Shown here: positions 5,687-63,675 of the stretch, piece by piece
How the letters are laid out: each line of letters opens with the position of its first letter
How positions within the stretch are numbered: position 1 is the first letter of the stretch
DNA from: Paenibacillus aceti
Lineage (GTDB): Bacteria > Bacillota > Bacilli > Paenibacillales > Paenibacillaceae
Direction: 5' to 3'
Assembly (NCBI RefSeq): GCF_003614185.1
Contig: NZ_KZ987724.1
Location: forward strand, 4,844,046-4,908,045
DNA length: 64,000 bases
Notes under the pieces: model-generated
Databases searched by the model: none
What the model was told of the DNA's origin: nothing
The model's input: only the letters and a program-made list of their open reading frames with translations
Translations under genes and position numbers: made by a program

Positions 5687-5870
5687 TCTAACGAAACTCC
5701 ATAACGCTATTTGCTCAAAAACATGACCAGCTTGAATCTAACGAAACTCCATAACGCTATTTTAATGAAATCCGGGGTTTAAGACAGAATTTCGCCCCAA
5801 TAGCGATACTCAGTTTCGTTAGATTTTTAATTCGTCTTTTTTGACACAAATAGCGTTACCCAGTTTCGTT
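5687..5870. repeat. Four-unit inverted repeat element, family 1, copy A (interrupted by intron)
   Basis: Two direct units (TCTAACGAAAC...ATAACGCTATT) start at 5687 and 5737 and two inverted units (TAGCG...GTTTCGTTAGA) have their TAGCG at 5801 and 5851. Spacing is 50, 64 and 50 bp, identical to the copies at 56233 and 63023. The fourth unit stops at GTTTCGTT (5870), where the group II intron begins; the missing last bases appear to lie beyond the intron near 7822. It starts 27 bp after the stop codon of the P-loop gene, and no other terminator follows that gene. Confidence 0.85.
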
Positions 5871-7823
5871 GCGCGCCTAGCCAAGCTAGGCATAACTAAC
5901 TGATGAAAGTTCAGTCGGGGTAAAGACCAAGCTGCCCCGTAGCTAGCAGGCAGTCTACGACGAAATTCGTGGACTGAAGCCCTGTAAAAAGCATGTAAAA
6001 AAAAACATGTGAAGCAAATCCACAGGCCGTAATGAAAATGAACCCTACCGCATCGTCAAGGTTAACCTACCTCAAAGGGAGGAAAAGAGAGTGCCGAGCC
6101 CCGAGCGAAAGGGTGAAGGCCATGGAACGCATGAAGAACTTGGATCGCAGTGCGGAAGAACTCTCCGGTGTATAGGGGTCGGCATGTGGAGAAAGTTATG
6201 TCTGGAACTAGGGAGACCCTCACCCACACGAAAAAAATACGTAAATGGTGAACCTATAAGCCTAAATAGGTGAAATGGGAATCCGTGGGAAGGGAGTCGG
6301 AGGGGGCCATAGTACTGATGAGGCAAAGGACAACATAACCTTGCGGAGGGAAGGGCGTCAAAAGACAATACCCCACTTCATTCATGGGAACTGAGGAGGT
6401 AAGAGCGAGTGAATGCCCGAAAGGCTAACTACGCCAAAGAAAAAGCTCGACAACTACAAAGAACTCTATACCTTGCGGCTAAGGAAAAACCGACACGTCG
6501 ATTTCATGCCCTCTATGACAAGATCTACCGGGAAGATATCATGACCTACGCGTGGAAACAGATCAAAGCAAACAAAGGTAGCGCGGGGATAGATCGAGTA
6601 ACGATCCAGCAGATTACCGAAGAATATGGAGAGAAACGCTTTATCCAGGAAACCTGTGGTCAACTCAGAAATGGAACGTACCGCCCCTCTCCCGTTCGGA
6701 GAGTCGAAATCCCTAAAGGGGATGGTCGAACAAGACCCTTGGGGATTCCAACCCTGCGAGATCGACTGGTACAGATGGCCACAAAAATCGTGCTAGAAGG
6801 GATCTTCGAGGCAGATTTCAAGGACTTCTCCTATGGATTCCGCCCGAAACGAGGTGCCCACGATGCGATCCAGAAAATCATGACGACGGTCAATGAAGGG
6901 AAAATATACTGGGTCGTCGATGTGGATATCAAAGGATACTTCGATCATATATCGCATGAGAAACTGATGATGCTGGTAGAGAGGCGAGTAAACGATCGTA
7001 GAGTATTGAAACTAATCCGCGGATGGTTAAAGGCAGGAATCATAAAAGATGATCAGTTTTATGAATCAGAGCTGGGAAGTCCGCAGGGCGGCGTGATATC
7101 TCCATTACTGGCCAATATCTACCTCAACTATCTGGATACGATATGGGAGCAACAATTCTCCCATATCGGTACGCTGGTCCGGTATGCTGACGATTTAGTC
7201 GTTTTATGCTACCGAAAAACGGAAGCGATGGAGGCGATTCGCATCTTAAGAACGGTGTTCACCCGCTTGGAACTGGAAATGAACCTAGAGAAGAGTAAGC
7301 TGGTGAACATATGGGACGATGATGTGGGTTTTGATTTCTTGGGACATCACTTTCGGAGATTAAAAGTGGCTCGCAAAGGGGGAAAGGAAGCTCATATTTT
7401 GAGAAGCTTTCCATCCAAGAAGGCGATGAAGAAAATGCGAGCGACGGTGAAAGAGATAACGGGCTCACGACATCTACTCCACAAGAAAATAAATGACTTG
7501 ATCGGGGAACTCAATCCAAAAAAGCCGAGGATGGAGGAACTACTACACCCAAGCGGATAAAGGGATAGCAAACCGTTTTCTGAGTAAGATCGATTGGTAT
7601 ATTCGAAGAAGATTGCTAATCTTCTGGAGGAAGAAACACCATAGACGCAGACCGAGCCAGGGGATCTTTGAGTTACTCCAACGAGAGGGTTTGAACTCGG
7701 TTACGACGTGGAAAAGGAAAAGTACGTACTGCCCAAGGTGAAGAATGTCGGAAAGCCGTATGCGGGAAAACCGCACGTACGGTTTGATGAGGAGGGGCTG
7801 GTAAACCCAGCCCTTTACTCTAC
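5871..7823 (+). mobile_element. Group II intron with degenerate maturase
   Basis: The element contains a structured 5' region (about 5871-6400), a reverse transcriptase/maturase gene in domain IV (6409-7741), and a clear domain V at about 7751-7786, where AGCCGTATGCGGG pairs with CCGCACGTACGGTT around an AAAA tetraloop. A domain VI hairpin follows, GGGCTGGTAAACCCAGCCC at about 7796-7814. The exact ends are uncertain: the 5' end near GCGCGCC at 5871 departs from the usual GUGYG, and the 3' end is near CTCTAC at 7823. The host site is the last unit of a family 1 repeat element. There is no HNH endonuclease domain. Confidence 0.85.
6409..7741 (+). pseudogene. ltrA-like: Group II intron reverse transcriptase/maturase, frameshifted
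   Basis: The frame runs from a GTG at 6409 (GAGGAGGT at 6393-6400) to 7560 and encodes a reverse transcriptase: PLGIPTLRDRLVQ, YGFRPKRGAHDAI, VDVDIKGYFDHI (RT-3), SPQGGVISPLLANIYL (RT-4) and the catalytic YADDLVVLC near residues 261-269. After IGELNPK the expected RGW-NYY of the maturase X domain is out of frame. A single-base change in the A6 run near 7519-7524 shifts translation, and the remaining maturase (RGWRNYYTQ, then NRFLSKIDWYIRRRL) continues in the next frame to a TGA at 7739-7741. Either the gene is inactive or the A-run is a sequencing error. The intron RNA itself still looks foldable and could splice in trans with a related maturase. Confidence 0.85.
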
Positions 7824-23387: not shown

Positions 23388-23452
23388 TCTAACGAAACAG
23401 GGTATCGCTATTTGCGCCCAAAAGCGCTGATCGGAATTGTAACGAGTTTCCT
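23388..23452 (+). repeat. Half element of repeat family 1 (two direct units)
   Basis: TCTAACGAAAC...TATCGCTATT starts at 23388, and a degenerate second unit, TGTAACGAGTTTCC, starts at 23438, again exactly 50 bp on. The inverted half expected near 23502 is absent; the minus-strand terminator of the GH65 gene occupies that position. Confidence 0.6.
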
Positions 23453-23482
23453 TAGAGAAAAGAAGTGGGCTAGCTGCATGAA

Positions 23483-33956: not shown

Positions 33957-33984
33957 AATAGCTATACTAGGTTTCGTTAGAGGG
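33957..33984 (-). repeat. Single family 1 repeat unit
   Basis: AATAGCTATACTAGGTTTCG followed by TTAGAG matches the inverted unit of the family 1 elements. A weakly similar CATTAGCGTTATCGACTGG lies 45 bp upstream, not 50. It may be a decayed element. Confidence 0.45.
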
Positions 33985-54521: not shown

Positions 54522-54573
54522 AGTAATTAACCAACAGGGTCATACGATATGACAGTTGAGGGGAGAGACAGAA

Positions 54574-55965
54574 GTGGAAATTATTCAAGTAATTCTCAAT
54601 GTTGTCGTTATGCTTGCATTGATTGGGCTGTTGCTCTGGATGCAGAAGAAGCATATTTCTTTTACAAAACGGGTATTCACAGGTCTTGGACTAGGACTTG
54701 TATTCGGAGTTGCGCTGCAGGCAATCTATACATCCAGCTCTGATGTGTTAGCCAAATCGACGGATTGGTTCAATCTGATCGGTCGCGGCTATGTCGGCTT
54801 GCTGCAAATGGTCGTCATACCACTGATTATGGTATCGATTATTTCGGCGATTATGAAGCTGAAGGGTAAGCAGAATCTGGGCAAGATGACGGCGCTGATC
54901 ATCGGTACGCTGTTGATTACGACGGCGATTGCCGCAACGGTTAGTATCGTCACCAGCCTCAGCTTCGACCTGAAGGCGATTCAGATTGAAGCGGGTCAGA
55001 AGGAACAGGAGCGCGGAGCGAAGCTTGAAGAGCGTGTCGGCGATGTAGCCGATAAGACGATTCCGCAGTATGTCCTGGACTTCATTCCAACCAATCCATT
55101 TGCGGATATGGCAGGTTCACGCAGCACTTCTACGATGGCGGTTGTCATTTTCTCGGCATTTATCGGTGTGGCTGTGCTTGGAATTGATAGGAAGAAACCG
55201 GAGCAAGCGGAAACCTTCCGTAAAATGGTGGATGCTGTATATGCGGTCGTTATGCGGATCGTTACCTTGGTACTGCGGCTTACGCCTTTCGGGATTCTGG
55301 CACTAATTACGAATGTGGTCGCGACGACGAATCCGGAGGAGATTCTGAAGCTGCTCAAGTTCGTGGTCGCTTCCTATGTGGCGCTGATCGCCATGTTCAT
55401 CATTCATTTAATTATACTGGCACTCTTCGGATACAATCCAATTCAGTATGTGAGAAAAGTATTCCCAACGCTGATCTTCGCGTTCACCTCCCGTTCCAGC
55501 GTAGCTACCATTCCGCTGAATGTGGAGACACAGACAAAACGGCTTGGCGTGCCAGAGGGCATTGCTAACCTGTCCGCTTCGTTCGGTTCGATGATCGGGC
55601 AGAACGGTTGCGCCGGGATTTATCCGGCCATGCTGGCTGTTATGATCGCACCAACGGTGGGGATCAATCCGATGAGCTGGGATTTCATTATTACCTTGAT
55701 CCTCGTGGTCGTCATCAGTTCGTTCGGTGTTGCCGGCGTTGGCGGCGGGGCAACCTTCGCGTCGCTGATCGTGCTGTCGACGATGAACCTGCCCGTCGGC
55801 CTGGCGGGTCTGCTGATCTCGGTTGAACCACTGATCGACATGGGCCGTACTGCCCTGAACGTCAACGACTCTATCGTAGCCGGTGTTGTGACTGGCAAGG
55901 TGCTCGGCGATAACGATAAAGACGTGTTCAAGCAAGATGTCGAGCTCGACGTTGTGCAAGCTTAA
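54574..55965 (+). CDS. tcyP: L-cystine/dicarboxylate-type cation symporter (TcyP family)
   Basis: A 463-residue symporter of the SLC1/DAACS superfamily with eight helices and two re-entrant loops. Diagnostic blocks are VGLLQMVVIPLIMVSIISAI (~78-97), FAFTSRSSVATIPLNVETQT (HP1 region, ~306-325), SFGSMIGQNGCAGIYPAML (TM7, ~342-360) and GVAGVGGGATFASLIVLSTM (HP2). The SSVATIPLNV and NGCAG features match the TcyP cystine group better than glutamate carriers. The GTG at 54574 has GAGGGGAGA seven bases upstream and is preferred over the TTG at 54556. It probably imports cystine with protons or sodium. Confidence 0.88.
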   Translation: MEIIQVILNVVVMLALIGLLLWMQKKHISFTKRVFTGLGLGLVFGVALQAIYTSSSDVLAKSTDWFNLIGRGYVGLLQMVVIPLIMVSIISAIMKLKGKQNLGKMTALIIGTLLITTAIAATVSIVTSLSFDLKAIQIEAGQKEQERGAKLEERVGDVADKTIPQYVLDFIPTNPFADMAGSRSTSTMAVVIFSAFIGVAVLGIDRKKPEQAETFRKMVDAVYAVVMRIVTLVLRLTPFGILALITNVVATTNPEEILKLLKFVVASYVALIAMFIIHLIILALFGYNPIQYVRKVFPTLIFAFTSRSSVATIPLNVETQTKRLGVPEGIANLSASFGSMIGQNGCAGIYPAMLAVMIAPTVGINPMSWDFIITLILVVVISSFGVAGVGGGATFASLIVLSTMNLPVGLAGLLISVEPLIDMGRTALNVNDSIVAGVVTGKVLGDNDKDVFKQDVELDVVQA

Positions 55966-56232: not shown

Positions 56233-56419
56233 TCTAACGAAACACCATAACGTTATTACTGCCGAAACCGAAACATTTCAAATCTAACGAAACACCCTAT
56301 CGTTATTCTGAGGGAATCGCGGCTTTAGACCCCAAATTGCTACCAATAGCGATACCCCGTTTCGTTAGAATTGGGGAAGACTCTTTTTGACGCGAATAGC
56401 GATACATAGTTTCGTTACA
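56233..56419. repeat. Four-unit inverted repeat element, family 1, copy D
   Basis: Direct units TCTAACGAAACACCATAACG and TCTAACGAAACACCCTATCG start at 56233 and 56283. Inverted units have TAGCG at 56347 and 56397 (TAGCGATACCCCGTTTCG; TAGCGATACATAGTTTCG). Spacing is 50/64/50, total 187 bp. CTCTTTTTGACGCGAATAGC precedes the fourth unit and has counterparts at the same place in the other two copies. It lies between the convergent cystine symporter and minor-pilin genes. Confidence 0.85.
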
Positions 56420-56436: not shown

Positions 56437-57708
56437 TCACCAGTTACCTTCCTTAAACACAATATCGCCGGGTTGATCAGGCGGCTTTGGCTTCCAATCC
56501 AGGCCCTCGATGACCAGCCCGTTATTTCCGACAATGTGAACCGCGCCATTCGAGTAAATATAGCCGCGCAAAGAGGAGGGGGTGGAGCCTCCATTGATCT
56601 TGGTGGAGCCTGCGGTATAGAGCTTGAATTGATTTTTGCCATATAGAGTTGATTCTAATTTGTCATTCACATAAATTCGCCCAGCGGTTAGCGTACCCTC
56701 TAAATCGATAGAACTCGTATACAGATCCCCGATAATGATTACCTTAGGCGGCGGATTACTCTCCGGACTGGGGGCTTTTATATCCATTGCTCCGTTCACC
56801 CGTATAATATTCCCCGAATGAATCTCTCCATTCCCATGAAGCTTCAGGCTTCCGTTAATATAAATACTTCCGGTGGCGGAGAGGGCCGACCCGGCTTCCA
56901 TCGTCACATCTCCTTGAATCAAAAGATCACCATCAACCTGAACGCGTATTCCAGGCATTAGGTTCAAGTCTCTCAGGGCAACCGATTCGGTAAAGTGCTG
57001 GTTCTGTGATACAGCTCCGGAGTAAGTGGGGATCATGTTGAACAGGTCGGATAAGGAGTCAGTTAATTCTTTGTTGAGATCAGTAATTATTTGGGCTACA
57101 TCAACCTGACCGGGCTTCTCCAGTCCATTCGAGGGATTTGAGATCAGTGTCACCTTTTGCCCATTAATCGTTGAATCGGTAATCATAAAACCACTAGTAG
57201 AATAGATATTTCCTTCAACAAGGGTACTGTTAATATCTATGGGGCCTTGGCTAACAATCGTATAACCGTTGTCTGTTCCATCAGGGGGGCCAGTTGGGCT
57301 GTAGTTGAGAATGATCTCGACTTTTCTCTGCAGGGTCTGTGTAATCTTGCCCGATTTGCCTATTGCAGAGACGACGGCGGTGTAACGCGAGCTCTCTTCG
57401 TCCATCGTCACGCTGCCCGCATCCACAAAAGACGCAGCGATGTCCTGGACGTCCTCAAGGGTAGCTGGCTCCTCTTCATTCTGTAGATTCATGATTTGCG
57501 CGCGGAGATCGGATAGCTTCAGCATCAGCCGCGTCTCTCCATCCGCCTGAGCGGACACGATATCCCCGGAGATGTTCACCATACTCCTTGAGTCGGAGAC
57601 GCTCCTCATCACAAGCGTGCCCAGGATAAAGAGAAGGACGGTGAGCAGCAGTACGGAGAGCAGGGCGTATCCGCGTTCGTGTTCATGGGAGCGGGGGAAG
57701 ATATGCAT
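56437..57708 (-). CDS. Type IV pilus-associated surface protein (PilX-like N-terminus, polar-repeat body)
   Basis: A 423-residue protein with one N-terminal membrane helix directly after a short basic stretch (GYALLSVLLLTVLLFILGTL), as in PilX-type minor components, but without a standard prepilin peptidase Gly-Phe-Thr-Leu site. The second half has repetitive short strands resembling a bactofilin-like or beta-helical array (DGDLLIQGDVTMEAGSALSA, GSIYINGSLKLHGNGEIHSG, VIIIGDLYTSSIDLEGTLTA). The ATG at 57708 is favoured over 57714, which touches the GAGGTGA site. It is the last gene of a minus-strand operon with two prepilin-like proteins and probably belongs to the pilus tip or base. Confidence 0.7.
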   Translation of the reverse strand: MHIFPRSHEHERGYALLSVLLLTVLLFILGTLVMRSVSDSRSMVNISGDIVSAQADGETRLMLKLSDLRAQIMNLQNEEEPATLEDVQDIAASFVDAGSVTMDEESSRYTAVVSAIGKSGKITQTLQRKVEIILNYSPTGPPDGTDNGYTIVSQGPIDINSTLVEGNIYSTSGFMITDSTINGQKVTLISNPSNGLEKPGQVDVAQIITDLNKELTDSLSDLFNMIPTYSGAVSQNQHFTESVALRDLNLMPGIRVQVDGDLLIQGDVTMEAGSALSATGSIYINGSLKLHGNGEIHSGNIIRVNGAMDIKAPSPESNPPPKVIIIGDLYTSSIDLEGTLTAGRIYVNDKLESTLYGKNQFKLYTAGSTKINGGSTPSSLRGYIYSNGAVHIVGNNGLVIEGLDWKPKPPDQPGDIVFKEGNW

Positions 57709-57719
57709 GCTCATTCACC

Positions 57720-61809: not shown

Positions 61810-63018
61810 ATGCCGCAATTTGCATATCGGGGAAAGGATCTCGTCTCAGGTAAAATCCGCCGTGGTGTCATCCAGGCAGTAGACCGGAATCATGCTCTGA
61901 CTGAGCTAAGGCAGCAGTATATTGTAACGGAGATCCATGAGCAGCGCGAGACGGTCTGGAACAAGGATTTCTACATCGGCAATCCGGTCAAGAATGAGCA
62001 GTTTGTCGTCTTCTGCCGTCAATTCGCCACGATGATCCGCGCCGGGATATCGATCGTGGATGCGACCGAGGTGCTGGCTGCGCAATCCGAGAGCAAGCCG
62101 CTAGCGAAGGCGCTGCATGAGGTGAATGCAGAACTGCGTAAGGGCAACACCTTCTCGGGGGCGATTTCGGCTTATCCGCGTATTTTTCCGCCTATTTTCG
62201 TACATATGATTCAGGCAGGGGAAGAGTCGGGCAGCATGGAGGATACGCTGGAGCGGCTAGCCGTATATTTCGAACGGGCCCATTACACCCGCGAGAAGGT
62301 CAAGTCGGCGATGACCTATCCGGCAATTGTCAGTGTGATGGCGGTTTTTGTAGTGGTTTTCCTGTTAAAATTCATCATTCCACGGTTTCAGACGATGTTC
62401 CTGCAGCTTGGCGGCGAACTGCCGGCCATTACCCGATTTACGCTGTCACTCAGCCGGAGTATAGAGAACCATTGGTATATTTGGCTGTTGGCTATCATCT
62501 GGCTTATCGCCATCATTTATTTGCTGCTGCGCTGGGAGCGCGGGGCCTACGCCTGGGACTATATCAAGCTGAAGCTGCCGGTGTTCGGCCTATTGCAGCG
62601 GAAGAGCGCTATCGCCCAGTTAACCCGCACATTGTCCTCGCTCTATGCCAGCGCGGTGCCCGTATTGCAATCGCTCGCCATCGTCGAGAAGATCGTCGGC
62701 AATAAAGTGATCGGGGCAACGATCCGCGAATGTCAGACCTCACTGAGGCAGGGGCGACCGCTCTCAGAGCCGTTCCGGCAATCATGGATTTTCCCTCCGC
62801 TCGTTACCCAGATGATCGTGGTAGGGGAGGAGACGGGCTCGCTCGATGAGATGCTGGGCAAAATCGCCGATTTCTACGAAGTCGATGTAGAGAATAGCGT
62901 GGACAAGCTCAAGCAATTGATCGAGCCGATTATGATCGTCCTTCTGGCCGGTGTCGTCGGCTTCATTATGGCATCCATCATGATCCCGATGCTGAGCCTT
63001 TATGGAAATATCAATTGA
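61810..63018 (+). CDS. pilC: Type IV pilus inner-membrane platform protein PilC
   Basis: A 402-residue GspF/PilC protein. Two T2SF domains (about residues 60-185 and 265-390) are seen as FCRQFATMIRAGISIVDATE and LTRTLSSLYASAVPVLQSLA, each followed by the conserved GEESGSMEDTL/GEETGSLDEML motif. Three membrane helices include VSVMAVFVVVFLLKFIIPRF and IMIVLLAGVVGFIMASIMIP. It begins one base after pilT and couples the ATPases to pilin assembly. A 219-bp repeat-containing gap separates it from the major pilin gene. Confidence 0.94.
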   Translation: MPQFAYRGKDLVSGKIRRGVIQAVDRNHALTELRQQYIVTEIHEQRETVWNKDFYIGNPVKNEQFVVFCRQFATMIRAGISIVDATEVLAAQSESKPLAKALHEVNAELRKGNTFSGAISAYPRIFPPIFVHMIQAGEESGSMEDTLERLAVYFERAHYTREKVKSAMTYPAIVSVMAVFVVVFLLKFIIPRFQTMFLQLGGELPAITRFTLSLSRSIENHWYIWLLAIIWLIAIIYLLLRWERGAYAWDYIKLKLPVFGLLQRKSAIAQLTRTLSSLYASAVPVLQSLAIVEKIVGNKVIGATIRECQTSLRQGRPLSEPFRQSWIFPPLVTQMIVVGEETGSLDEMLGKIADFYEVDVENSVDKLKQLIEPIMIVLLAGVVGFIMASIMIPMLSLYGNIN

Positions 63019-63022
63019 TACC

Positions 63023-63209
63023 TCTAACGAAACTACAGATCGCTATTTCCGCAGAAACAGCCCTCATTTCAATCTAACGAAACACCATAACGCTATTCAG
63101 GACAAAAACAGGCTCAAAGCTACTATTTTGCCTCAATAACGATACCCAGTTTCGTTACAAATCTCAGCGGCTCTTTTTGGCGCAAATAACGCTACCACGT
63201 TTCGTTAGA
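63023..63209. repeat. Four-unit inverted repeat element, family 1, copy E, inside the pilus operon
   Basis: Direct units start at 63023 and 63073 (TCTAACGAAAC...), and inverted units have TAACG at 63137 and 63187 (TAACGATACCCAGTTTCG; TAACGCTACCACGTTTCG). Spacing is 50/64/50 and length 187 bp, as in copy D. CTCTTTTTGGCGCAAATAAC precedes the fourth unit. It lies 5 bp after the pilC stop and 28 bp before the prepilin start, so it would be transcribed in the operon and could fold into a long hairpin. Confidence 0.85.
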
Positions 63210-63237: not shown

Positions 63238-63675
63238 ATGACTGCACTTATTCAAAGGTTTAGAAAAGAAGAGAAGGGTTTGACATTAATCGAGTTACTC
63301 GCGGTAATCGTCATTATCGGAATTATCGCCGCGATTGCGGTGCCGTTGATTACGGGAATGCTCGACAAAACGAAGGAAAATGCGCGTGTGGCGACGGCAA
63401 ATCAACTGTTCGAGGCGGCGAAGCTGCGGTCGATTGCGATTAATAATGGGGATTTGAAGGAAACACATGCTTTGCAGGATTTAATTGATGATGGATATAT
63501 TCAGGGGGGACTTACCGATCCGGAGACGGGCAAGTCTTTCGAAGCAGGCACCTTAGTAAATCTGGATAATATTAAATCTGGGGATGTAGTTACTCTTGTT
63601 GTTGAAGGAGTGTCTAAATCCTACACAGTGGCGGAATTGACCAAGAATAGCGAAACCGCAAAGGCCACTCCCTAA
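63238..63675 (+). CDS. Type IV major prepilin (PilA/PilE-like)
   Basis: A 145-residue prepilin. The leader KEEKGLTLIELLAVIVIIGI has the peptidase site (Gly/Leu), Glu at +5 and the long hydrophobic helix, followed by IAVPLITGMLDKTKENARVA. The globular domain resembles Gram-positive type IV pilins (GYIQGGLTDPETGKSFEAGT). TAGGAGG precedes the ATG. High expression is likely, and the repeat element upstream may set its level relative to pilB-pilT-pilC. Confidence 0.9.
   Translation: MTALIQRFRKEEKGLTLIELLAVIVIIGIIAAIAVPLITGMLDKTKENARVATANQLFEAAKLRSIAINNGDLKETHALQDLIDDGYIQGGLTDPETGKSFEAGTLVNLDNIKSGDVVTLVVEGVSKSYTVAELTKNSETAKATP

Follow-up and report, generated by a model that had tools for sequence, protein, structure and literature searches.

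The element at 56233..56419 belongs to a family of 187-bp, mostly intergenic elements in which two direct and two inverted units stand at near-constant distances, while the letters of the units vary by species. The reading that explains the results best, to which we give a probability of roughly 55%, is that each element is a four-site array bound as double-stranded DNA by a putative, dialect-specific protein, held at each of its sites, turning over between lineages and at times expanded in tandem.

Geometry in the window and in the genome

The window, i.e. the whole stretch of 64,000 nucleotides that was analysed, contains the following elements and fragments:

56233..56419, plus strand: four-unit element of 187 bp, flanked by the gene of an SDF-type symporter (54556-55965) and by an ORF on the minus strand with a weak DUF7305 match (56437-57714)
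56233..56257, plus strand: unit 1 of this element, 25-bp core part
56283..56307, plus strand: unit 2
56345..56369, minus strand: unit 3, inverted
56395..56419, minus strand: unit 4, inverted, its 11-mer with one mismatch
5687..5873, plus strand: four-unit element, its unit 4 (5863-5873) more degenerate
63023..63209, plus strand: four-unit element, with a T2SSF gene (61810-63018) on the left and an N_methyl pilin-like gene (63238-63675) on the right
23388..23456, plus strand: deletion derivative in which unit 1, the spacer and the start of unit 2 are fused to the end of unit 4
33957..33981, minus strand: solitary poor, degenerate unit with an exact 11-mer (33971-33981), which scored below the score for listing single units in the spacing-free unit scan described below

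The order of two direct and then two inverted units, which the first-pass annotation had described, was seen in the elements at 5687, 56233 and 63023, and the total length of 187 bp holds for each of them. The 11-mer lies at 5687, 5737 and 5813 (minus strand) in the first element, at 56233, 56283, 56359 (minus) and 56409 (minus, one mismatch) in the second, and at 63023, 63073, 63149 (minus, one mismatch) and 63199 (minus) in the third. When one mismatch was allowed, the window contained 15 matches, compared with 0.80 expected from shuffles. Spacing had been given as 50/64/50 bp. The outer distances of 50 bp and the constancy of the middle distance across the three copies were confirmed, but the value of 64 was not reproduced, as the middle distance is 76 bp from left edge to left edge and 65 bp between the 11-mers. 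The half copy reported at 23388/23438 is real, the start of its unit 2 being joined to the end of unit 4. At 5897, 24 bp past the first element, a match to a group II intron (RF02003, RT ORF 6409-7560) starts.

Quantification across the whole Paenibacillus aceti genome yielded 353 perfect 11-mers, compared with one for the reversed pattern, and 105 four-unit elements in which the four exactly spaced 9-mers deviated at no more than 3 of their 36 letters. The direct 9-mer pairs numbered 181; with distances of 35-65 bp allowed, 98 of the 100 pairs listed were spaced 50 bp apart and two 49 bp. A spacing-free scan for single 35-bp units, with a profile built from exact-geometry copies, revealed 60 clusters of the order '++--' in 1.72 Mb, part of which had been picked around known copies. 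Their outer-edge distances were (50,86,50) in 54 cases, (50,85,50) in four and (49,86,50) in two. The same scan returned 33 further items (fragments, single matches and larger clusters), among which there may be chance matches. The distances between the units were almost fixed.

The consensus of the unit, obtained from 248 units of 62 exact-geometry copies, consists of TCTAACGAAAC, three to four loose bases, T-A-(T/A)-CG-(C/T)-TATT, and an AAA at positions 32-34 that is kept in 83-92% of the units per position. The earlier statement that only CTNTTTTTGRCRC is also kept was therefore too narrow. A unit is about 35 bp long and is separated from its neighbour by about 15 bp. By eye, each unit amounts to no more than a loose palindrome (TAACGA / TCGYTA), and the element as a whole has terminal inverted repeats. 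Between copies the units were 85.5% alike, compared with 53.9% for the remaining sequence. The best match per copy had a median of 0.816 and a maximum of 0.893, so that none of the 62 copies had a partner above 90% identity, and this divergence rules out recent segmental duplication as the source of most copies. One duplicated flank was noticed by eye; it belongs to the pair of copies around 80.3 kb and 91.0 kb.

Dialects and distribution

The letters that follow TAACG differ between genomes (AAAC, GAAC, GACA, GTTG, CTTG, AACT and others), and they are usually identical in the four units of one element. In 50 non-AAAC elements, few of which were sampled per genome, the agreement at positions 8-11 was 0.765-0.835 for all six pairs of units within an element, versus 0.455 between elements. 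Dialect letters that are shared by all four units fit a co-change with a reader protein, and because the letters vary by species while the distances stay, a protein very probably reads the element. Among the options that the first-pass annotation had raised, a protein reading the units is the best supported one; the protein itself we infer. Two dialects coexist in each of the genomes G013, G019 and G022. The P. aceti genome may likewise hold a second dialect, as TAACGGACA-type units lie near a TAACGAAAC element in one of the stretches (L187, from about 4100). In the AAAC dialect, positions 12-15 read CCA in the left units and TGG/GGG in the right units (own strand); units of the same side agreed at 0.58-0.61 and partners at 0.38-0.42, a pattern that is absent from the other dialects. 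All four AAAC-dialect units therefore have CC on one strand, which gives the element a polarity.

A pattern of TAACG/CGTTA plus geometry, with one mismatch allowed, was found in 149 of 395 family genomes and in 15 of 19 genera, with up to 168 copies and zero matches of the reversed control. The first-pass annotation had seen a single dialect and missed this spread. Its claim that the length is constrained gains from it, since the same geometry in so many genomes and the lack of any copy pair above 90% identity show that the length is no accident of recent duplication. The TAACGAAAC form itself was present in 5 of 41 genus genomes (in G020 as a single pair only) and in 17 of the 395 family genomes. 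In a sample of the class, 15 of 398 genomes matched, namely 13 within the family, G399 elsewhere in the order, and G558 as the only one of 360 outside the order. In the variable-gap search, the third-unit spans were 131-134 among the places listed, with 118-148 allowed. The variable-gap pattern matched 14 of 14 chosen GG-core genomes. G286, with one match, did not exceed its control (also one), and in three others the control matched 1-3 times; the GG-core spans were mostly 131-134 among the places listed for three genomes, with 101-161 allowed.

Four viral contigs carry the four-site layout, and nothing was found in phage and plasmid records when one element each was queried. The lone copies of G293, G294 and G393 were considered as a founder locus and rejected: their neighbours were ordinary by eye, and G293 and G294 hold further copies with other cores. 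The literature search, which included PMC2267715, PMC3733652 and PMC1525189, found no description of this element among the matches listed; for the bare 9-mer, these were 15 of 79 papers.

Folding and strand-specific roles

The inverted layout could mean that the element is selected for folding, as RNA or as a single-strand structure (nested hairpin, cruciform, terminator or mRNA stabiliser), and a nested hairpin or cruciform had been among the first proposals. The folding energy of one copy is -47.5 kcal/mol (z -4.17 versus shuffles), although any inverted repeat would fold well; the elements are mostly intergenic and seldom sit at divergent promoters (39 tandem, 14 convergent and 3 divergent among 56 resolved gene contexts). 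However, complementarity was not maintained. In 62 copies, 45 of 93 paired positions varied on both sides, and in these 45 pairs 984 of 1700 possible Watson-Crick cells were observed, where independent columns would give 1002.4, so that covariation was absent despite ample power. Pairing in the natural register equalled the independence expectation in all four regions, and departures to G-U and to A-C were both as expected. For one pair, 85-103, pairing was above expectation (38 versus 26.4). Position 35 changes jointly in three units, and we therefore read this excess as a subfamily signal. The spacers of the two arms had a likeness of 0.305, below the chance value of 0.380.

Base pairing would also make the partner units (1-4 and 2-3) most alike. 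At the dialect positions of the 50 non-AAAC elements, hairpin partners agreed at 0.815 and 0.795, not above the non-partner pairs, which argues against pairing. In 16 of 39 tandem contexts the elements pointed the same way as the genes, and in 36 of 65 cases the same way as the replichore (origin assumed at about 4.1 Mb), so that neither comparison showed a strand bias. No Rfam family matched the element; the three matches next to it or partly overlapping it were sub-threshold and at chance level. The folding idea thus fails on the chance-level pairing, the partner units that are no more alike than others and the missing orientation bias, and these results rule out folding, cruciform and strand-specific RNA roles to an extent that leaves them only a small probability. 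The reader of the units is presumably a protein and not an RNA.

Integron attC sites also have paired inverted boxes around variable filler and resemble the element in this respect. They differ from it in that we know of no 50-bp direct repeat of their boxes, and the pairing of the element is unmaintained.

Maintenance, turnover and a putative reader

The placement of the elements was analyzed in 61 stretches, evenly placed or given (1.264 Mb, 51,884 masked). By crude ORF calling, intergenic sequence made up about 14% of the bases. Among 42 multi-unit elements, 37 were intergenic, four lay at stretch edges and one overlapped a predicted ORF. In the orientation sample, 4 of 65 elements lay over a predicted ORF.

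Conservation in place was most evident for the genomes G011 and G032, in which all four clusters per 200 kb were found at matching sites (detected with a profile that includes the core, at a low threshold), two of them having grown into tandem arrays in G032. At the four shared sites, 143 of 144 positions of the 9-mer cores were identical, compared with 227 of 256 in the rest of the units and 271 of 348 in the spacers (Fisher p 7e-12), with the limit that two of the four comparisons used the best-matching array copy, which could flatter the identity. The 60-bp flanks of the two single-copy sites were identical at 134 of 201 aligned bases. The nearly invariant cores beside the drifted spacers indicate that the sites are kept in place by selection, and this favours a function of the site over a purely selfish element. 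In a wider set of orthologues, partly chosen by exact cores, core identity was 0.94-1.00, with one value of 0.75. Sites in common with G000 were L054/L069 (in D2_2), L072 (in GM2) and L086 (in G011 and G032). Tandem arrays or added 50-bp modules also occur in GM2 and G163, and extra right-hand units occur in G032 and G163, so that single 50-bp modules can be gained or lost.

Copies also come and go between species. At the 63023 site, seven relatives have a short intergenic stretch without the element and two have unrelated sequence. The element L087:8355 is missing from G031, G011 and G032, and L087:313 is missing from G011 and G032. Conversely, one site that is 7 bp long in G000 contains, in both G011 and G032, a TAACGGAAA-type element of another dialect. 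Only these named sites were used, as the tabulated 'empty' (31) and 'filled' (23) sites contain tandem-copy artefacts, and the intergenic flanks were too diverged to fix exact insertion junctions at the compared sites. The unrelated sequence at the 63023 site in G011 and G032 (L261 and L262) has AGTTCA/TGAACTTT-like ends, and since similar ends adjoin the GM2 tandem array in L280, it is likely another repeat family.

Filled and empty sites are also what a mobile element would leave, and the elements could be non-autonomous and MITE-like, with units 1-2 and 3-4 as two transposase or recombinase sites per end, served by an enzyme in trans that makes no target-site duplication. About a hundred dispersed copies per genome, the empty sites in relatives (window 63023, L087:313 and L087:8355), the coexistence of dialects in three genomes and the other-dialect element of G011 and G032 speak for this explanation. 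The patchy presence among the 395 genomes, the species-specific gain and the four viral-contig matches would fit it too. However, target-site duplications were absent from 42 own copies and from 214 copies at lengths of 2-40 (largest z 2.7). The 1.72 Mb of own sequence contained no autonomous relative with the same ends and no gene-bearing copy apart from IS insertions. Y1 transposases are missing from G011, G031 and G032 (there are 14 in G000), IS110 is missing from G013, G022 and G003, and cores that remain intact at fixed sites are unexpected for dead copies. The MITE-like explanation is therefore rather unlikely, though it retains an appreciable share of the probability. A 13-bp duplication suggested by k-mer hints (z up to 3.9) was dismissed, as the direct test gave z 1.8. 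Flank matches above shuffles were seen at the mirror positions -3/+11 and -11/+3 (74 versus 52.0 and 79 versus 54.5), without a surrounding duplication. Bacterial MITEs named in PMC3733652 include bcr1, RUP, NEMIS and ERIC. Like MITEs, the elements are short, non-coding and dispersed between genes, with terminal inverted repeats and filled and empty sites; they differ in the missing target-site duplication, in the two sites per end at a fixed distance and in spacers that diverged while the cores were kept in place.

Movement by a REP-associated tyrosine transposase, as for REP/BIME repeats, or by an IS110-type element would account for the intergenic position, the high copy number, the units in opposite orientations and an insertion sequence found within an inner unit. 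Yet Y1_Tnp counts are zero in G011, G031, G032, G012, G018 and G022, and PF01548 counts are zero in G013, G022, G003 and G037, all of which carry elements; the IS110 DEDD transposase count is also zero in G001. These counts rule out either transposase as a requirement and make this the least probable of the explanations. According to passages in PMC1525189 and PMC2817692, REP/BIME repeats are high-copy, intergenic, protein-binding insertion-sequence targets with inverted units and species-specific sequence. The present elements share these properties, protein binding being putative here, but their units do not look like separately paired hairpins under selection (pairing between units is not maintained), their geometry is that of a fixed array with four sites, and several heavy carriers lack Y1 transposases.

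The DNA uptake sequences of Neisseriaceae likewise combine a constant part with species-specific dialects (PMC3630211). By analogy, a putative receptor could prefer DNA of its own dialect, and recombination of the taken-up DNA could keep the cores; the species dialects with a constant part and the in-place conservation of the cores resemble this case. The strict four-site geometry and the low density (353 perfect 11-mers in 5.6 Mb) would remain unexplained and tandem arrays would be unexpected. Unlike uptake sequences, the elements are arrays of 187 bp at fixed spacing, about a hundred in number. Such a self-favouring signal is very improbable.

In the preferred reading of a protein-bound array, a putative sequence-specific DNA-binding protein would read each unit as double-stranded DNA, with one site of about 25 bp and contacts reaching about 35 bp. 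With outer edges 50, 86 and 50 bp apart, the two direct sites and the two inverted sites after them would assemble four protein molecules or dimers into one nucleoprotein complex of fixed shape, and this shape would fix the inter-site distances. TAACG and the (C/T)TATT end are common to nearly all dialects, and the four to six bases after TAACG would be the specificity part; their joint change across the four sites is what a reader protein that changes with them would lead one to expect. Copies would be functional in place, with cores kept at their chromosomal sites as the spacers drift; between lineages they come and go, and in some genomes they have multiplied as head-to-tail tandem arrays. 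The putative protein would bridge or loop DNA through the four-site complex, and its gene would lie on the host chromosome and not on a mobile element. The complex may serve to organise the chromosome, to control genes or to allow movement. The analysis found no reader protein.

Dispersed repeats of bacteria are usually explained as hairpins or dead transposons. Neither fits here, with spacing conserved over 15 genera, dialect changes in four sites at once and cores preserved at fixed sites. Tentatively, and with somewhat less than even confidence, we regard the elements as a new class that is nearly confined to one order, i.e. a four-site scaffold of invariant geometry with lineage dialects, a fast-changing predicted reader (a new recombinase/transposase group or a genome-organising system) and copies kept functional site by site. 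The specificity of the reader must follow the dialect, which offers a direct handle on the putative protein, so that the question whether high-copy repeats of bacteria serve their chromosome can be put to the test.

The 40 most recurrent clusters of 1962 neighbour ORFs were inspected by eye; no general mobilisation gene recurred among them, and one cluster, at four loci in two genomes, resembles an IS3 transposase. At two loci of the own genome, near 912.4 kb and 1106.9 kb (L174 and L179), an IS3-family insertion sequence (97.8% alike) sits inside an inner unit, after about unit position 14, and units of L076 and L187 are broken at nearly the same point. In L179, a repeated ACC flanks the break, an IS66-type element is nested beside it, and type III CRISPR-like ORFs with a translated CRISPR-like repeat array (L179:56-3642, by eye) lie just before the interrupted element.
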